A DNA stretch of 64,000 nt, taken from contig NC_009523.1 of NCBI RefSeq assembly GCF_000016665.1, forward strand, positions 4,153,501 to 4,217,500, in the 5' to 3' direction. The translations under genes were made by a program, and so were the position numbers. How positions within the stretch are numbered: position 1 is the first letter of the stretch; each line of letters begins with the position of its first letter. This document shows, one piece after another, positions 49,467-63,475 of this stretch. This DNA comes from Roseiflexus sp. RS-1 (lineage in GTDB: Bacteria > Chloroflexota > Chloroflexia > Chloroflexales > Roseiflexaceae). A model generated the notes under the pieces. It was not told the origin of the DNA. It did no database searches and was given only the letters and a program-made list of their open reading frames with translations.

Positions 49467-50882
49467 CTAGCGAACGCCTGGAATAACATTGCCAAACACC
49501 TGGGGCGACAACGTGATGTTCATCTGCTGCAACTTCTCGAGGAAGCGCGGGCGAATACCTGTCGGCACGATTCGACCGACGACCCTGCCGTCACGCACGC
49601 CCTGTTGCTGGAACACGAACAGATCGGAGAGCGAGACGACATCATTCTCCATGCCAGTCACTTCACAGACCTGCACGATCTTGCGTGAGCCGTCCTGGAG
49701 ACGTTCAAGTTGAATGATGATATTGATCGCCGAAGCGATCTGTTCGCGGATCGCGCGCAGCGGCAGGTCCATCCCCGCCATCATGACCATCGTCTCCATG
49801 CGGCGCAGCGCATCACGCGGACTGTTGGCGTGCAGCGTCGTCATCGAACCGTCGTGACCGGTGTTCATTGCCTGAAGCATATCGAGCGCCTCACCCGCGC
49901 GACACTCGCCGACGATAATCCGATCCGGGCGCATACGCAGGGCATTCACGACCAGATCACGCAGCGTCACCTCGCCGCGCCCTTCGATATTGGCGGGACG
50001 TGACTCGAGCGTCACGACATGACGCTGTTGTAGTTGCAGTTCGGCAGCGTTTTCGATGGTGATGATGCGCTCATCGTCGGGGATGAACGATGAGAGCACA
50101 TTGAGCATGGTGGTCTTGCCGGTGCCGGTGCCGCCGGAAATGATGCAGTTGAGCCGTCCCAGCACACATGCTCGCAGCAGGTCCATCAACTCTGGCGACG
50201 CAGCGCCACGCGCCACCAGATCGGCAGCGGTGAGCGGAACACGCGAGAACTTGCGGATCGTGATCGTGCTGCCATTGAGCGCCAGCGGCGGAATGATGGC
50301 GTTGACGCGCGACCCGTCCGGCAGACGCGCGTCGACCATCGGCGTCGTCTCATCGCACCGACGACCGAGCGGTGAGATAATGCGATCAATGATGCGCCGC
50401 ACATGGTCTTCGTCGATAAAACGGGCGTCGGTTTCCTGCAATTTGCCGTTGCGCTCGACCCAGATCTGGTATGGACCGTTGACCATGATCTCGCTAATCG
50501 TATCGTCGGCGAGCAACGGTTCGAGTGGACCGAGTCCAAGCAGTTCGGACTGCGCCAGGCGGATCAGACGCATGCGTTCCCGTTCGGAAACTACGCGACC
50601 GCTCCTGTCGAGGTGCTCGGTCACCAGTTCCGCGATACGGCGCGCGTAGTACTCCGGTTCACGGCGCCCGCTCGTATCAGTCTCATCGATCAACTTTGAC
50701 TGAACCACTTCGATCAGATCGCGTTCATCGCGATCGGCATCGTGTGCGGTCGGAGGAACCGACGACCGCGCTACGACCGGTCGCACCGGCTCAATCGGCG
50801 GGCGCGGTTCATCGACGGGGGTGGCGTTGGGCGCCTGGTGTGCATTGCTGGCGCCGCTTCGCGAGAAACGAAACCGGTTCAT
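49467..50882 (-). CDS. cpaF: Tad/CpaF secretion ATPase
   Basis: A 471-residue GspE/VirB11-type ATPase. After a polar leader (1-60), the N-terminal domain has [21 protein letters not shown]; the ATPase core has [13 protein letters not shown] (Walker A), [57 protein letters not shown] (Asp and His boxes) and [17 protein letters not shown]. It drives pilus extension, and in some systems also retraction. It precedes tadB by 13 bp. Confidence 0.95.
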
Positions 50883-53509: not shown

Positions 53510-53878
53510 TCAATTCAGCATCGTCTGGATCAGGCCCAGCACCTGCTCGATATCGAACGGCTTCTGAATGATGACGGCGCCTTCGGCTTCGAGGTCGGCA
53601 AACCAGGGTTTCCGATTCAGGGCGGTTATAATAAAAATCGGGATGCCATCCTCCTGGAGTTGATCCTTCATGCGCTGGAAGGCTTCGACGCCATCCATCT
53701 GCGGCATCATAATGTCACAGATTACCAGGTTCGGGCGCAGGGACACAAGTTTTGCGACCCCCTCCTGACCATCGCTGGCGACTTCGACACGATACCCTGC
53801 CTCACGCAACGCAATCTCCAGTACGGTTTGCATCGCCGGATCATCGTCAATAACCAGAATGGTGGGCTGTTCATCCAT
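53510..53878 (-). CDS. Single-domain response regulator (CheY-like)
   Basis: A 122-residue receiver from ATG 53878 (an ATG six bases upstream has poorer ribosome spacing). It has the acidic pocket VIDDDPAM, phosphoacceptor NLVICDIMMPQMDG, the conserved Thr in FIITALN and Lys in IIQKPFD. There is no output domain. It diverges from the kai-linked histidine kinase; the two start regions are 190 bp apart with back-to-back extended -10 promoters. It may pass phosphate between the kinase and another partner. Confidence 0.92.
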   Translation of the reverse strand: MDEQPTILVIDDDPAMQTVLEIALREAGYRVEVASDGQEGVAKLVSLRPNLVICDIMMPQMDGVEAFQRMKDQLQEDGIPIFIITALNRKPWFADLEAEGAVIIQKPFDIEQVLGLIQTMLN

Positions 53879-53979
53879 GAGCATTTCCTGCTGATCGTGC
53901 TGAGCAAAGGAACGACTCCGGTCAGGCGGCGTGGGAGTGAAGGTACGACGAAGCGACCAACCCGACGACAGGCGCGCCT

Positions 53980-53988
53980 ATTATAGCA
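53980..53988 (-). promoter_or_regulatory. Extended -10 promoter for the receiver gene
   Basis: TGCTATAAT on the minus strand, about 100 bp from the receiver ATG. No -35 match at 17 bp. It stands 31 bp from the divergent extended -10 at 54016-54024, which serves the kinase. Confidence 0.6.
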
Positions 53989-54015
53989 CGAAGCGCAGCG
54001 CCGTCTGGTAGATGT

Positions 54016-54024
54016 TGGTATAAT
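54016..54024 (+). promoter_or_regulatory. Extended -10 promoter for the histidine kinase/kai unit
   Basis: TGGTATAAT (TGn-TATAAT) lies 44 bp before the kinase ATG at 54069. The region at -35 (CAGCGC) does not match the consensus, as is usual for extended -10 promoters. Because downstream genes have small gaps, it may drive kinase and regulator together. Confidence 0.6.
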
Positions 54025-54068
54025 AGAGCAGTCGTGCACGCGCCCATCTACCCACATAGAGTTGACCC

Positions 54069-55274
<1,206 letters not shown>

Positions 55275-55285
55275 CGTCCGGTTGC

Positions 55286-56161
55286 GTGAGCATCGTCGGG
55301 GTTGGAGATATGCGCACAGGAACCGATACACCGCTAGAAGTCCTGCTGGTCGAGGACAACCCCGGCGACGCGCGACTGGCTGCCGAGGCGTTCGCTTCGG
55401 CGCGGATCGGCACGTTCACGCTCACCCGTGCCGAACGGTTGACAGAAGCGCTCGAACTCTTGCAGCAACGCTCGTTCGACGCAATCGTGCTCGATCTTTC
55501 GTTGCCAGACAGCAGCGGGCTGGATACCCTACAGCGCGTCCTGCACCACGCCCCTGATATACCGGTCGTCGTGTTGACCATGCTGAGCGACGAATTGCTG
55601 GGGGTTCAGGCGGTGAATGCTGGCGCGCAGGACTACCTGCAGAAGGATGGGTGCGTGCATGAATCACTGGCGCGCTCGGTGCGCTACGCTGTCGAGCGTC
55701 AGCGCTTGCTGCGCGAACTCCAGCACGCCCGTCAGCAAGAACAACTGGCGCGCAACGCGCATGAGATTGCCGCCGTCGAACAACTGTCGCACGATACGCG
55801 CACCTCGGTGACGGCGCAACTGTACAGCGCGCTGCCACTGCGCGACGCGCAACCGGATCTGTTCTCAGAATTGGTGGCGCAGTACGGGCACATCCTTGAT
55901 CAGCGCCTGGAACAGCGCGCCTACAAAATCGAGACGAACACATCCGATACCCTGCGCGAGATTGCGAATCAACTCGGCTTTCTTCGCGCCGGTCCGCGCG
56001 ATGTGGTTGATGTCCACACGCACGCCATTCGCCAGCGGGTGCGGGGTGCAAGTGTGATGCGCATGCAGGCGTATGTCGAGGAGGGACGACTGCTCGTGCT
56101 CGAATTGATGGGATACCTGGTATCGTACTATCGCGCCTATGCGCTTGGCGGTATCCATTGA
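55286..56161 (+). CDS. Response regulator with C-terminal KaiA/RsbU-like helical domain
   Basis: 291 residues from GTG 55286 (ATG 55310 is the alternative). Residues 18-135 are a full receiver: VLLVEDNPGD (E24, D25), AIVLDLSLPD (D70), VVLTMLS (T98) and DYLQKDG (K120). A helical linker (135-180) follows. Residues 185-283 read LFSELVAQYGHILDQRL, then IANQLGFLRAGPRDVVDVHTHAIRQ and YVEEGRLLVLELMGYLVSYYR. This pattern of helices with P-x-x-V-V-x-x-H and E-x-R-L-x-x-x-x-x-x-x-x-x-x-Y-R is that of the KaiC-binding domain of KaiA and of the related RsbU N-terminal domain. Upstream of kaiB by 234 bp. Confidence 0.8.
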   Translation: MSIVGVGDMRTGTDTPLEVLLVEDNPGDARLAAEAFASARIGTFTLTRAERLTEALELLQQRSFDAIVLDLSLPDSSGLDTLQRVLHHAPDIPVVVLTMLSDELLGVQAVNAGAQDYLQKDGCVHESLARSVRYAVERQRLLRELQHARQQEQLARNAHEIAAVEQLSHDTRTSVTAQLYSALPLRDAQPDLFSELVAQYGHILDQRLEQRAYKIETNTSDTLREIANQLGFLRAGPRDVVDVHTHAIRQRVRGASVMRMQAYVEEGRLLVLELMGYLVSYYRAYALGGIH

Positions 56162-56395
56162 TCGATCTATGACTTCACTGCAAAAACGCACCGCCGAGAC
56201 GCCGGGCGCGCAGAGAACTTCAAACATATGCGCAGCGAAGCGTGAGGCGTTAGAGCGACTCGCTCTGGCATCGTCCGCTGCGAACGCTGCGCCGCTGCGG
56301 TGACCTGCCCTTTTTGCAGTGGACTTACCTATGATACCATATTATAGCTGTGGCGGCAGATGTACATCAGGACCGTTCAAAGGGGAAGCGAACCG

Positions 56396-56701
56396 ATGAC
56401 GAGTAAATTTGTCCTCAAGCTCTACGTCACCGGTCAGACGCCGCGCACCGAGCGGGCGATCCAGAACCTGCGACGAATCTGCGAGCAGAATCTTGGCAGT
56501 CAGTATCAGTTGTTCGTGATTGACGTGCTGGAACAACCGCACCTCGCCGAGCAAGAGCGGATCCTGGCGACGCCGACGCTGATCAAGGAACTGCCGCCGC
56601 CAGTCCGGCGCATTATTGGTGATCTTTCCGATACGCTCAAAGTGCTGCAAGGTTTGGATCTGCCAGTCCATCCCTCGAGCACAGGAGGAACGCAGGAGTG
56701 A
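56396..56701 (+). CDS. kaiB: Circadian clock protein KaiB
   Basis: A 101-residue KaiB, the normal length, from ATG 56396 (AGGGGAAG upstream). It has [69 protein letters not shown], the thioredoxin-like fold with the family's KLYV.G and ATPTL.K..P.P..R..GD signatures. KaiB binds the CI ring of KaiC and, in cyanobacteria, switches fold to sequester KaiA. An AT-rich TATGATACCATATTATAG stretch about 55 bp upstream may be its own promoter. It overlaps kaiC by 4 bp. Confidence 0.96.
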
Positions 56702-58230
56702 GTCTAAATCTGCGCCAACCAGCCATCGAAAAACTGCCAACCGGCATCAGTGGCTTCGACCTGATCGCCAACGGCGGGATTCCCGCCGGTCGAACCACGC
56801 TCGTCTCCGGTACCGCTGGCAGTGCCAAAACGGTCTTTGCCGCCCAGTTTCTCGCCGAAGGCATTCGCAAATATGGCGAGCACGGGGTGTTTGTCACCTT
56901 CGAAGAACCACCCTCGGATATCCGCCGCAACATGGAATCCCTCGGATGGGATATTGCAACGTGGGAGAGCGAGGGGAAGTGGGCATTTGTGGACGCATCG
57001 CCCCAACCCGGCGAGGAAATGCTCTTCGCCGGCAACTATGATCTCGGCGCGCTGCTGGCGCGGATCGAAAATGCGGTTCGTCGCATCGGCGCCAGACGCC
57101 TGTCGATGGACTCGCTCGGCGCAATTTTCACGCAATTCGCCGATAGCGCCGTTGTGCGTCGTGAACTGTTCCGCGTCGTCTCGGCGCTGAAGCGCCTGGG
57201 GGTCACCGCTATCATGACCGGTGAACGCACTCAGGAGTATGGCGATATTGCGCGCTACGGCGTCGAAGAGTTCGTGGCGGATAATGTCATTATTCTGCGC
57301 AACGTGCTGGAGGACGAAAAGCGCCGCCGCACTATCGAGATACTGAAGTTTCGCGGTACGTCGCACCAGAAAGGGGAGTTCCCATTCACAATCATCTCTG
57401 GTGAAGGGATGGTGGTGATACCGCTCTCCGCGATCGAACTCAAACAGCGCTCGTCCGATATTCGCGTGACCTCCGGCAACCCCGAACTCGACCGCATGTG
57501 CGGTGGAGGTTTCTTCCGTGACTCGATCCTGCTCGTGTCGGGTGCGACGGGCACCGGCAAGACGCTGATGACCACCGAGTTCATGGCAGGCGGGGTCAGG
57601 CGGGGTGAGCGCTGCCTGTTGTTTGCGTTCGAGGAGAGTCGCGAGCAGTTGTTCCGCAACGCCACTGGCTGGGGCATCGATTTCGAGCAGATGGAACGGG
57701 ATGGGTTGCTGCGCGTCGTCTGTGAGTATCCCGAAACTGCCGGGCTTGAGGATCATCTGATCGCAATGAAAAAGTTGATCCAGGAGTTCCGCCCCAATCG
57801 CGTGGCGGTCGATAGTCTCTCCGCACTCGAACGCGTCTCGACCATCCGTGGCTTCCGTGAGTTTGTGATCAGTCTCACGTCGTTTATCAAGCATCAGGAA
57901 ATTGCCGGTCTGTTTACGGCAACCACCCCTAGTTTGATGGGGGGAGAGTCGGTGACGGAGACCCATATCTCAACGTTGACCGACTCGATCATCCTGCTGC
58001 GCTATGTCGAGATGTTCGGCGAGATGCGCCGCGGGTTGACGGTGCTGAAGATGCGCGGCTCGATGCACGATAAGGATATTCGCGAGTTTACCATCGATAA
58101 CCGGGGCATGCACATCGGTCGCCCGTTCCGCCAGGTGACCGGCATTCTGTCTGGCAATCCGATCCATATCGCGCCTGGCGAGATCGACCGGATGAACCAG
58201 TTGTTCAATGATGACGAGCCGCAGACGTGA
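56698..58230 (+). CDS. kaiC: Circadian clock ATPase/kinase KaiC
   Basis: A 510-residue double-RecA protein from GTG 56698, overlapping the kaiB stop (GTGA). [11 protein letters not shown] (residues 37-45) and VTFEEPP (E69, E70). [11 protein letters not shown] (282-289), FAFEES (E312, E313). Phosphosites Ser425 and Thr426 in [17 protein letters not shown] are conserved, as in S431/T432 of Synechococcus KaiC. The C-terminal tail ([18 protein letters not shown]) keeps the A-loop region that KaiA binds. It should form a hexamer with slow ATPase, autokinase and phosphatase activities. All residues for a working timer are present. Confidence 0.97.
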
Positions 58231-58306: not shown

Positions 58307-59788
58307 ATGAATCGCACCGATGTGTTGACCGACCTGCGACGTGTCGTTGGACCGCGCGCCGTCATCGATGACGCTGCCACGCTGCTGACCTATGAGGCGG
58401 ATGGGTGTGTACTGGATACGCATCCGCCCAACGTTGTCGTGCTGCCGGCAACAACCGAGGAAACTGCGGCAGTCGTGCAGATCGCCAACCGCGCCGGGAT
58501 GCCGATCGTACCGCGCGGTGCAGGCACCGGTCTGTCTGGCGGCGCGACGCCGATCCACGGCGGGATTGTGATCTCGACGGCGCGGATGGAACGGGTGCTG
58601 GAAGTGGATGTGCGCAATCGACGGGCACGGGTGCAACCGGGGGTGATCAACTGGGAACTGTCGCAGTACCTGGGACAGTACGGGTATGCGTTCATGCCCG
58701 ACCCATCCTCCCAGAAGGCGTGCACCATCGGCGGCAACATTGCCAACAATAGTGGCGGACCACACTGCCTCAAGTATGGACTGACGACCAACCACGTCCT
58801 GGCGCTGCGCGTGGTGCTGCCCGATGGCAGTGTGATCTGGACGGGTGACGGGCGGCAGGATGGCATCGGCTATGACCTGGCAGGTGTGTTGACCGGCAGC
58901 GAGGGAACGTGCGGCATCATTACCGAGGCATGGGTGCGAATGACGCGCCTGCCGGAAGCGTTGCGCGTGGTGCTGGCGCTGTTCCCGGACATTCCATCGG
59001 CGTCACAGACGGTTTCGACGGTTATTGCGCGCGGGTTTCTGCCAGCTGCGCTGGAAATGATGGATCACCTGGCGATCCGCGCTGTGAACGGCATGTATCG
59101 CCTGGGATTGCCTGAGAGCGCCGGAGCGGCGCTGCTGATCGAACTTGACGGCGTCAACGATGGGCTGGACGACCTGCTCGCCGAAATTACCGGCATCTGC
59201 CGCGATCTCGGCGCGATGGAGGTGCGTCCGGCGAAAACCGCTGCTGAACAGGCGCAGGTCTGGGCTGCGCGCAAAAATGCATTTGGCGCTATGGGACGCC
59301 TGGCACCAACGTACTACCTGGTCGATACGGTTGTGCCGCGCACGCGCCTGCCGGCGACGCTGGCACGCGTCGGTGAGGTGTCGCGCGATTACCGCCTGCC
59401 GATTGCGAATGTCTTTCATGCGGGCGATGGCAACCTGCATCCGCTCATTCTGTTCGACCGACGCGACAAGGGGCAACTCGAACGTGCGCTTCTTGCCGCT
59501 ACCGACATTCTGCGCGAGTCGATCAATCAGGGCGGAGTGATCAGCGGCGAGCACGGGATTGGCGTCGAAAAGCGCGATTACATGGATCTGCTGTTTACCA
59601 CCGACGATCTGGCAGCGATGGCCGGTCTGAAGCGCAGTTTCGATCCGCGTGAAATCTTCAATCCCGGCAAGATTTTCCCGAAAGGGGTCGGATGCGGCGA
59701 ACTGGCTGCACTGCGCCGACGTGGCTTGCCAGCCGCTGAACTGATCGGCGCAGACACGGGCAGCGTGTCGTCAGGAACGTGGTTGTGA
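58307..59788 (+). CDS. glcD: FAD-linked oxidase, glycolate oxidase subunit GlcD-like
   Basis: A 493-residue FAD-binding oxidase. Residues 40-220 form the PCMH-type FAD domain (PRGAGTGLSGGATPIHGGIVIS, PDPSSQKACTIGGNIANNSGGPHCLKYG, GSEGTCGIITEAWV) and the rest the vanillyl-alcohol-oxidase C domain with NVFHAGDGNLHPLILFD and SGEHGIGVEKRDYM. It oxidises glycolate or D-lactate. In phototrophs glycolate from phosphoglycolate is the likely substrate. ATG 58307 with CACGGAG upstream. Separated from glcE by 577 bp of repeat and remnant DNA; no glcF is in the window. Confidence 0.93.
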   Translation: MNRTDVLTDLRRVVGPRAVIDDAATLLTYEADGCVLDTHPPNVVVLPATTEETAAVVQIANRAGMPIVPRGAGTGLSGGATPIHGGIVISTARMERVLEVDVRNRRARVQPGVINWELSQYLGQYGYAFMPDPSSQKACTIGGNIANNSGGPHCLKYGLTTNHVLALRVVLPDGSVIWTGDGRQDGIGYDLAGVLTGSEGTCGIITEAWVRMTRLPEALRVVLALFPDIPSASQTVSTVIARGFLPAALEMMDHLAIRAVNGMYRLGLPESAGAALLIELDGVNDGLDDLLAEITGICRDLGAMEVRPAKTAAEQAQVWAARKNAFGAMGRLAPTYYLVDTVVPRTRLPATLARVGEVSRDYRLPIANVFHAGDGNLHPLILFDRRDKGQLERALLAATDILRESINQGGVISGEHGIGVEKRDYMDLLFTTDDLAAMAGLKRSFDPREIFNPGKIFPKGVGCGELAALRRRGLPAAELIGADTGSVSSGTWL

Positions 59789-59895
59789 GAGGTGAGGTTG
59801 AACGTTGCAGGTTGAACGTGGCAGGTTGAACGTGGCAGGTTGAACGTGGCAGGTTGAACGTGGCAGGTTGAACGTGGCAGGTTGAACGTTCGGGG
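59788..59895. repeat. GGCAGGTTGAACGT 14-bp tandem array
   Basis: About six units of GTGGCAGGTTGAACGT-type (14 bp) run right after the glcD stop. It is the same minisatellite family as at 28576, 29092 and 44398. The following 120 bp (59896-60015) have no clear features. Confidence 0.9.
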
Positions 59896-60015: not shown

Positions 60016-60369
60016 CCGGATATTCTTTTCATTGCCCACGAACGGGTTCACCTGATCCAACCGACATTCCTCGACGGCGCGGCAGACCTGGTGGTGGAAA
60101 TTATTTCACCGGAGAGTGATGAACGCGACCGTGGCGAGAAGTTTATCGAATATGAAGCGGCAGGCGTGCGTGAGTACTGGCTCATCGATCCGCTCCGTGA
60201 GGAGGCGATGTTTTACCAGTTAACGCCCCAGGGTCGCTATCGCCTGGTCGTTCCATCACCGGATGGCGTGTACCACTCTGCCGTTATCGCCGGGCTATGG
60301 TTGCGCGTCGAATGGCTCTGGCAGCGACCGCCGGTGTTGCGTATCCTGAAAGAACTGGGCGTCCTATGA
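60016..60369 (+). pseudogene. N-terminally truncated Uma2/DUF820 protein
   Basis: The frame after TGA 60013-60015 reads PDILFIAHERVHLIQPTFLDGAADLVVEIISPESDERDRG..., then VREYWLIDPLREEAMFYQ and WLRVEWLWQRPPVLRIL to TGA 60367-60369. Uma2 (restriction-endonuclease-like DUF820) proteins have about 190-210 residues; the first 80 or so, including the N-terminal helices, are missing. The catalytic-like VVEIISPES and EYEAAGVREYW are there. A start at GTG 60088 or nearby would give a shorter product. The stop overlaps the glcE ATG (ATGA). Probably a remnant, but the coupling means it may still be translated. Confidence 0.75.
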
Positions 60370-61649
60370 ATCTGAACGAGGCACTCCGCACTGCTCTCCC
60401 TCCTGATACAGTCCAGGATGATGCCCCAACGCTGGAAGCATTCAGCGTGCAGGGGGTGCGCCCCCTGTGCGTCGTTACGCCTGGCAACGTCGAGGAACTC
60501 CAGGCAACGCTGCGCATCGCCGCAGAGCGCCGCGCAGCGCTGGCGGCGTGGGGCGGCGGAACGCAACAACTGATTGGCGCGCCGCCAACCCGCCTCGACC
60601 TGGTGGTGCGCACGACACGGCTTAACCGGGTGCTGGCGCACACTCCCGATGACCTGACGATTTCCGTTGAGGCAGGGATGACGTTTGGCGCACTCCGCAC
60701 CTATCTGGCGCAGCACGGTCAAATGCTGGCGCTTGACCCGCCGTTGCCGGATCGGGCGACGATTGGCGGGTTGATCGCCACGGCAACCGACGGACCGCGA
60801 CGGTTGGGGTACGGCACGCTGCGCGATGTGCTGATCGGGATTGCAGTGGTTGAAGTCGGCGGGCGACTCTCACGCGGCGGCGGCATGGTGGTCAAGAACG
60901 TCAGCGGCTTCGACATGATGAAACTCTACCTGGGAAGTTTCGGCACGCTGGCGGTCATTGCCAGCGCAAATTTCAAACTGTTGCCGCAACCGCGCGCGGC
61001 AGGAACAATCCTGTGCCGATTCAACGACCCCAAACCGGCGTTTGCCGCGCTCGACGAACTCGATGGCACCCAACTGGCGCCAGTCGCTGCTGAATACCTG
61101 AACCGCAGTGCGCTCGCTGCCGTGGGACAATCCGGCGTCTGTGCGCTGGCGTTGATGGCGGAAGGCCTGCCGCAGGCGGTTGAACGTCAGATGAACGATA
61201 TGAGCGCCATCATGCGACGCCACGGCGCGCAATCAGTTGAGCGGCTGCACGGTGGCGAGGCGGAGGCGCTCTGGTCAGCCATTGCCGACCTGCCGCAGAC
61301 TGCAACACTCGCCGCAGATGAAGCTGTAGTGAAACTGTCGGTATTGCCGACCGATGTGGCATCCGCCATCGCACAGTGTGAAGCGTCCGCCGCCCGTGTC
61401 GGCTCATCGGTCGCCATCAATGCGCGGGCGCTCAGTGGTGTGCTGTACGCCAGAGTACGATCGGTCACCGCTGCTGCACTCACAACCCTGACAGCCGAAC
61501 TGCCGGGTCTTCAGTGGGTGGCGACGACGCTGCCCGATACGCCGCGCTGGGGGGCGCCGCCGCAGGGTCTCGATGTAATGCGGCGCATCCGCGACGAATT
61601 CGATCCGCTCCACCTATTGAATCCCGGACGATTTGTGCCAGGACTGTGA
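60366..61649 (+). CDS. glcE: FAD-binding protein, glycolate oxidase subunit GlcE-like
   Basis: A 427-residue protein from ATG 60366. It has the FAD-PCMH core PLCVVTPGNVEELQATLRIAAERRAALAAWGGGTQQLIGAP, AQHGQMLALDPPLPDRATIGGLIATATDGPRRLGYG and NVSGFDMMKLYLGSFGTLAV, and a short C-terminal end DEFDPLHLLNPGRFVPGL. It matches GlcE, the second flavin subunit, which lacks the full C domain of GlcD. Overlaps the Uma2 stop; likely still in one unit with glcD. Activity would need GlcF or another electron acceptor. Confidence 0.92.
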   Translation: MNLNEALRTALPPDTVQDDAPTLEAFSVQGVRPLCVVTPGNVEELQATLRIAAERRAALAAWGGGTQQLIGAPPTRLDLVVRTTRLNRVLAHTPDDLTISVEAGMTFGALRTYLAQHGQMLALDPPLPDRATIGGLIATATDGPRRLGYGTLRDVLIGIAVVEVGGRLSRGGGMVVKNVSGFDMMKLYLGSFGTLAVIASANFKLLPQPRAAGTILCRFNDPKPAFAALDELDGTQLAPVAAEYLNRSALAAVGQSGVCALALMAEGLPQAVERQMNDMSAIMRRHGAQSVERLHGGEAEALWSAIADLPQTATLAADEAVVKLSVLPTDVASAIAQCEASAARVGSSVAINARALSGVLYARVRSVTAAALTTLTAELPGLQWVATTLPDTPRWGAPPQGLDVMRRIRDEFDPLHLLNPGRFVPGL

Positions 61650-63095: not shown

Positions 63096-63475
63096 GGTAC
63101 CTGTTCACACCTGGGGTCATCCACAAACCTGGGAGCGCGGGCGTCCCGCCCGCACTGCGTCTCCAAGAGCAAGATGCCCAGGAGACATCATCGGGTACCT
63201 GTTCACACCTGGGGTCATCCACAAACCTGGGAGCGCGGGCGTCCCGCCCGCACCGCGTCTCCGAGGGCAAGATGCCCAGGAGACATCATCGGGTACCTGT
63301 TCACACCTGGGGTCATCCACAAACCTGGGAGCGCGGGCGTCCCGCCCGCACCGCGTCTCCAAGAGCAAGATGCCCTCGCTCCAGGAGACATCATCTCTCC
63401 GAGGGCAAGATGCCCTCGCTCCAGGAGACATCATCTCTCCGAGGGCAAGATGCCCTCGCTCCAGGAGACATGGAA
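63096..63475. repeat. Two adjacent tandem arrays: 98 bp x 3 and 40 bp x 3
   Basis: A 98-bp unit starting GGTACCTGTTCACACCTGGG repeats three times from 63096, 63194 and 63292, each with a GCGGGCG-TCC-CGCCCGC palindrome and AGATGCCCAGGAGACATCAT. Then the 40-bp unit GAGGGCAAGATGCCCTCGCTCCAGGAGACATCATCTCTCC repeats at 63361 (with AAGAGC), 63401 and 63441. The second array is related to the end of the first. No spacer diversity, so not CRISPR. The flank 62965-63095 holds nothing else. Confidence 0.92.

Follow-up and report, generated by a model that had tools for sequence, protein, structure and literature searches.

A KaiA3-type protein with a complete receiver, encoded between a sensor kinase and kaiB-kaiC in Roseiflexus sp. 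RS-1

Does a protein that joins a response-regulator receiver to a KaiA-like domain serve a KaiC clock in a photosynthetic member of the Chloroflexota, which are unrelated to cyanobacteria, and does the histidine kinase encoded next to it supply its phosphate? The question is raised by an open reading frame in a 64,000-nucleotide window, the whole stretch of DNA analysed, of the Roseiflexus sp. RS-1 genome (5.80 Mb, one contig). Our reading, to which we give a probability of roughly 0.7, is that the gene encodes a KaiA3-type clock activator within a kinase-kaiA3-kaiB3-kaiC3 cluster, and that the kinase at 54069 phosphorylates KaiA3 and in doing so gates the phosphorylation of KaiC. The features concerned are, by window position:

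53510..53884, minus strand: stand-alone receiver (Pfam Response_reg 1.5e-23), divergent; possible second partner of the kinase
54069..55274, plus strand: sensor histidine kinase (PAS_4, HisKA, HATPase_c); candidate phosphodonor of KaiA3
54120..54464, plus strand (genome 4207620-4207964): sensor PAS domain of that kinase; it and the KaiA-fused PAS of Chloroflexaceae are reciprocal best matches
55286..56161, plus strand: kaiA3 reading frame, probably starting at ATG 55310; encodes a receiver joined to a KaiA-like C-terminal domain
55340..55648, plus strand: receiver domain of KaiA3, from Pfam Response_reg (residues 19-121) and active-site alignment
55820..56158, plus strand: KaiA-like four-helix C-terminal domain, from AlphaFold2, Foldseek, VIA and hhalign
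56360..56701, plus strand: kaiB (Pfam KaiB 6.8e-30; NCBIfam KaiB); ATG 56396 is the likelier start
56698..58230, plus strand: kaiC of the KaiC3 type, with the S425/T426 phospho-pair and a C-terminal tail; 4-bp overlap with kaiB

Roseiflexus is among the genera in which Köbler et al. (2024) reported KaiA3 together with kaiA3B3C3 synteny (PMC11372060), and the receiver-KaiA described here is that known KaiA3, not a new occurrence; the same authors state that the cognate histidine kinase of KaiA3 is not yet identified. In Synechocystis, phosphorylation of KaiC3 is promoted by KaiA3, a binding partner of KaiC3, and counteracted by KaiB3; the three proteins together oscillate in vitro (PMC11372060). 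Schmelling et al. (2017) detected no KaiA outside the cyanobacteria; Dvornyk and Mei (2021) listed REC, AtoC and other N-terminal domains of KaiA and a few non-cyanobacterial KaiA proteins, and no PAS.

The receiver and the C-terminal domain of KaiA3

Counted from GTG 55286, the reading frame has 291 residues, and all KaiA3 residue numbers follow this count; the true start is probably ATG 55310, because the matching frame of a 94% identical relative (G001) contains an in-frame stop and the aligned ATG is where homologues start. Pfam assigned Response_reg to residues 19-121 (E 1.5e-19), and translation and alignment revealed a complete phospho-pocket composed of E23, D24 (followed by N25), D70, T98 and K120. 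These residues are consistent with the intact phospho-site that the first-pass annotation had proposed for a KaiA-type protein; it had numbered D70, T98 and K120 correctly, and had placed the acidic pair one position too high, at E24 and D25. Canonical cyanobacterial KaiA (PF07688) likewise carries a four-helix, KaiC-activating C-terminal fold and lies upstream of kaiBC, but its pseudo-receiver is without the aspartate, whereas Roseiflexus KaiA3 possesses D70 and is not matched by PF07688. Separately, the phospho-accepting aspartate is replaced by serine, glycine or asparagine in some cyanobacterial KaiA3 copies (loci L056-L062, L064, L066, L073 and L077).

Beyond the receiver, KaiA3 gave no significant Pfam match, neither the KaiA nor the RsbU_N model being recovered; nor did searches of Pfam and of PDB sequences recover KaiA, whether the query was the C-terminal domain by itself or its profile, and the top sequence matches, SHERP and OprN, were dropped as weak helical matches. 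PF07688 matched nothing in the host genome, and nothing over cut-off in 60 genomes comprising the organism's own and its relatives. An AlphaFold2 model of the full-length protein (pLDDT 89.9) retrieved only receiver-led matches in a fold search (Z up to about 20), and the C-terminal domain was therefore modelled alone; with 43 relatives, AlphaFold2 returned a confident four-helix fold (pLDDT 93.4). When this model was compared with the PDB by Foldseek, each of the ten best matches was a KaiA C-terminal domain (probability 0.98-1.00, TM 0.60-0.68), with weak E-values of 0.06-0.5. VIA-align placed seven KaiA entries at Z 10.5-11.7, ahead of the next fold, the N-terminus of RsbR, at Z 8.8; Z values of this size are insufficient alone for helical bundles, though the KaiA rows stand apart. 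Finally, hhalign aligned the domain profile with eight cyanobacterial KaiA sequences at E 1.6e-5 (probability 79), with 19% identity across 90 columns.

By predicted structure, the C-terminal half is a KaiA fold, and by profile-profile comparison it is a relative of KaiA. The likeness suggested at first sight therefore held in the fold prediction, where a clearly different fold was looked for and not found; among the profile searches it was recovered by the comparison with cyanobacterial KaiA and not by the Pfam KaiA and RsbU_N models. According to published work, the N-terminal domain of RsbU (RsbU_N, PF08673) shares the KaiA-like fold, a related helical dimer (PMC11372060). Unlike Roseiflexus KaiA3, RsbU is fused to a PP2C phosphatase, belongs to a stress-sigma pathway and has no KaiC context; it was absent from the structures listed in both fold searches (Foldseek and VIA), an absence that excludes nothing.

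The kai cluster and the spread of KaiA-type genes

The gene order is kinase, kaiA3, kaiB, kaiC. The presence of kaiB and kaiC directly downstream of kaiA3, which the text of the first-pass annotation did not mention, is the strongest functional evidence in the locus. Roseiflexus KaiC is 73%, 56% and 38% identical to the three KaiC proteins of Synechocystis salina, of which the first is not encoded beside kaiA and the second belongs to the kaiA1 cluster. In a tree of 71 KaiC sequences it grouped with cyanobacterial proteins of the KaiC3 type, split from KaiC1 by a branch with support 100/95; it retains both phospho-residues, S425 and T426, and a C-terminal tail alignable with those of KaiC1 and KaiC3. 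Because kaiB and kaiC follow directly and the KaiC is of the KaiC3 type, we regard the locus as a KaiA3-KaiB3-KaiC3 operon, and the earlier suggestion of a KaiA3-type chimera outside the cyanobacteria is borne out by fold, profile, synteny and KaiC type. As in Synechocystis KaiA3 (Sll0485) and its orthologues, a receiver with a phospho-accepting aspartate is joined to a KaiA-like C-terminal domain, and kaiB3 and kaiC3 lie downstream; in contrast to Synechocystis, the Roseiflexus cluster itself includes kaiC3, and directly upstream there is a gene for a sensor kinase.

A scan of 53900-56450 for sigma-70-like promoters found nothing. Between kaiA3 and kaiB lies a MITE-like element of about 146 bp (56176-56321), with inverted ends CACTGCAAAAA/TTTTTGCAGTG and 45 matches in the genome; in other Roseiflexus loci, kaiA3 and kaiB are about 78 bp apart.

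GTDB genomes were scanned with the domain profile, without the use of kaiB or kaiC, and the best 80 of 106 loci were retained; these span about 15 phyla by organism labels, and, many of the records being metagenome-assembled genomes, the result is to be read as a sample. Together with the Chloroflexales loci, the domain set comprised 94 proteins in 60 clusters at 75% identity. A kaiB or kaiC gene adjoined 31 of 39 receiver-KaiA clusters and all 14 PAS-KaiA clusters, so that nearly all relatives have a context linked to KaiC; conservation in 94 proteins, nearly always beside kaiB or kaiC, argues that the C-terminal domain is not a product of chance. In strain XS-1 (L086), which has been described as having kaiBC-based systems (PMC10278575), receiver-KaiA genes directly precede two kaiBC pairs. 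Two tandem kaiABC sets, one of them divergent, were seen in a Nitrospirota (L086) and a Calditrichota (L082) genome.

The upstream kinase and the exchange of sensors

The gene directly upstream, which ends 35 bases before ATG 55310 of kaiA3, encodes a histidine kinase with HATPase_c (6.2e-27), HisKA (5.1e-15) and PAS_4 (4.6e-9) domains, in agreement with the initial view that KaiA3 lies next to its own kinase. To be counted as adjacent, a kinase gene had to neighbour the KaiA-type gene directly or across one single-receiver gene; this was the case for 19 of 39 receiver-KaiA clusters against 1 of 14 PAS-KaiA clusters (Fisher p 0.0087, a test that takes related clusters as independent, their relatedness being removed only in part). 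About half of the receiver-KaiA clusters are without an adjacent kinase, all cyanobacterial ones among them.

A search with the core of the Roseiflexus kinase covered 12 genomes from other lineages and gave 30-100 kinase matches per genome; a kinase of the kai locus ranked first in 7 of them and second in 3. In the kinase tree, 13 of the 19 upstream kinases fell into one subfamily (92/88), that of the Roseiflexus kinase itself, together with cyanobacterial phytochromes, and the Chloroflexaceae kinases formed a distant family. A single co-inherited kinase lineage was rejected: the tree requires 11 label changes, and the subfamily includes the cyanobacterial phytochromes. Since the kinases beside receiver-KaiA do not form one clade, the recurrent pairing of kinase and receiver-KaiA probably arose more than once. 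The Roseiflexus kinase core belongs to the same subfamily as Cph1-type phytochrome kinases but, unlike these, is preceded by a single PAS domain and no phytochrome photosensory module. For cyanobacteria, a phytochrome as the kinase of KaiA3 is speculation only.

In Chloroflexaceae, the gene that precedes kaiB and kaiC encodes a PAS-PAS-KaiA protein; it has the same KaiA-like domain in the same place as Roseiflexus KaiA3, but two PAS domains stand in for the receiver and no kinase gene lies next to it. The receiver-KaiA gene of this family is located away from kaiBC, where it abuts or overlaps a PAS kinase gene. When the PAS of the Roseiflexus kinase was searched against five Chloroflexaceae genomes, the best match in all five was the second PAS of PAS-PAS-KaiA; in the reverse search, the sole match of the Chloroflexus PAS in each of five Roseiflexaceae genomes was the PAS of the kinase beside KaiA3. 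These reciprocal matches point to a natural swap: one sensor, which works by way of a kinase in Roseiflexaceae, is attached directly to KaiA in the sister family Chloroflexaceae.

Three Chloroflexaceae proteins have the architecture receiver-PAS-PAS-KaiA, none with a complete phospho-pocket. The two KaiC proteins of these loci that could be placed in the KaiC tree were sister to the KaiC of the PAS-PAS-KaiA group, a position that an intermediate would be expected to take; in the KaiA-domain tree, which is poorly resolved, the three proteins were not placed next to PAS-PAS-KaiA. Directly after kaiC in Chloroflexaceae lies a gene for a PAS-PAS-GGDEF-EAL protein (L115:9288-11813 and equivalents), the PAS of which was the next match to the kinase PAS in 3 of the 5 genomes; the protein may be a c-di-GMP output.

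As far as the literature could be searched, the pairing with a kinase and the apparent exchange of the sensor are undescribed; no other paper on PAS-KaiA or on a KaiA3 kinase was found, subscription journals lying mostly outside the scope of the search.

A proposed input pathway and its alternatives

We propose that kinase 54069 would sense a stimulus with its PAS domain, adjust its autophosphorylation accordingly and then transfer the phosphate to D70 of the KaiA3 receiver. Phosphorylation of D70 may in turn alter, whether upward or downward, the binding of the dimeric KaiA-like domain to the C-terminal tail of KaiC; when bound to that tail, the domain would drive autophosphorylation at S425/T426, and KaiB would oppose this action of KaiA3. 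A rhythm may exist in Roseiflexus as well. Light or redox, put forward in the first-pass annotation, is a guess at the signal of the kinase.

The best-surviving alternative, which we consider unlikely, is that KaiA3 does activate KaiC, but that its receiver is independent of kinase 54069, being a structural or ligand-binding module or the target of another donor, and that the partner of the kinase is the receiver at 53510. This stand-alone receiver is kept beside the kinase in Roseiflexus (L048-L053), and in several other phyla such a gene separates the kinase from receiver-KaiA; cyanobacterial KaiA3, moreover, lacks an adjacent kinase, and some copies have lost the aspartate. However, the presence of an adjacent kinase tracks with the receiver rather than with the KaiA domain, the PAS swap places the same sensor directly on KaiA, and two receivers can be served by one kinase.

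Known clock operons recruit kinases for output, and PAS kinases also sit after kaiC in other phyla, from which it could be argued that kinase 54069 is an output component, SasA- or CikA-like, that reads KaiC or KaiB and signals to the divergent receiver, its adjacency to KaiA3 reflecting shared regulation only. We think this improbable: the sensor of the kinase is of the PAS_4 type and a KaiB-like SasA domain is lacking, and an output role beside kaiBC leaves unexplained the kinase and receiver-KaiA pair located away from kaiBC in Chloroflexaceae. That the C-terminal domain is instead an RsbU-type partner-binding domain with a switch kinase or an anti-sigma factor, rather than KaiC, as its target is very hard to credit, for although RsbU_N has the same fold, 2 of 14 domain members matched its model weakly (best E 0.06) and the RsbR N-terminus was the next fold, KaiA structures came first by a clear margin in Foldseek and VIA, nearly every copy of the domain adjoins kaiB or kaiC, and RsbU_N matched neither KaiA3 nor any protein in the 40 related genomes.

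Under our reading of a kinase-gated KaiA3, kinase 54069 is a concrete candidate for the KaiA3 kinase that Köbler et al. described as not yet identified, and this candidate and the sensor swap make the KaiA3-type clock input directly testable with purified proteins. The odds seem to us about even that KaiA is a modular input of KaiBC clocks far beyond the cyanobacteria, its KaiC-activating domain being addressed either through the receiver by a dedicated kinase (Roseiflexus, Planctomycetota, Magnetococcales and others) or through fusion to the same PAS (Chloroflexaceae), and that many kaiBC clusters described as 'KaiA-less' carry such a KaiA. KaiA has been regarded as a cyanobacterial protein, and kaiBC systems elsewhere as simpler timers, a view to which the wide occurrence of KaiA-type genes next to kaiBC is relevant; an example is strain XS-1 (PMC10278575), described as kaiBC-based, which carries receiver-KaiA genes.

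Genes for GlcD-like (58307-59788) and GlcE-like (60297-61649) FAD oxidases, both below NCBIfam cut-offs, lie directly downstream of kaiC. Tandem repeats occupy 59795-59889 (14 bp), 63096-63375 (98 bp) and 63356-63471 (40 bp), and a TadA/VirB11-like ATPase encoded at 49467-50882 on the minus strand, flanked by membrane proteins, probably belongs to a Tad pilus cluster.
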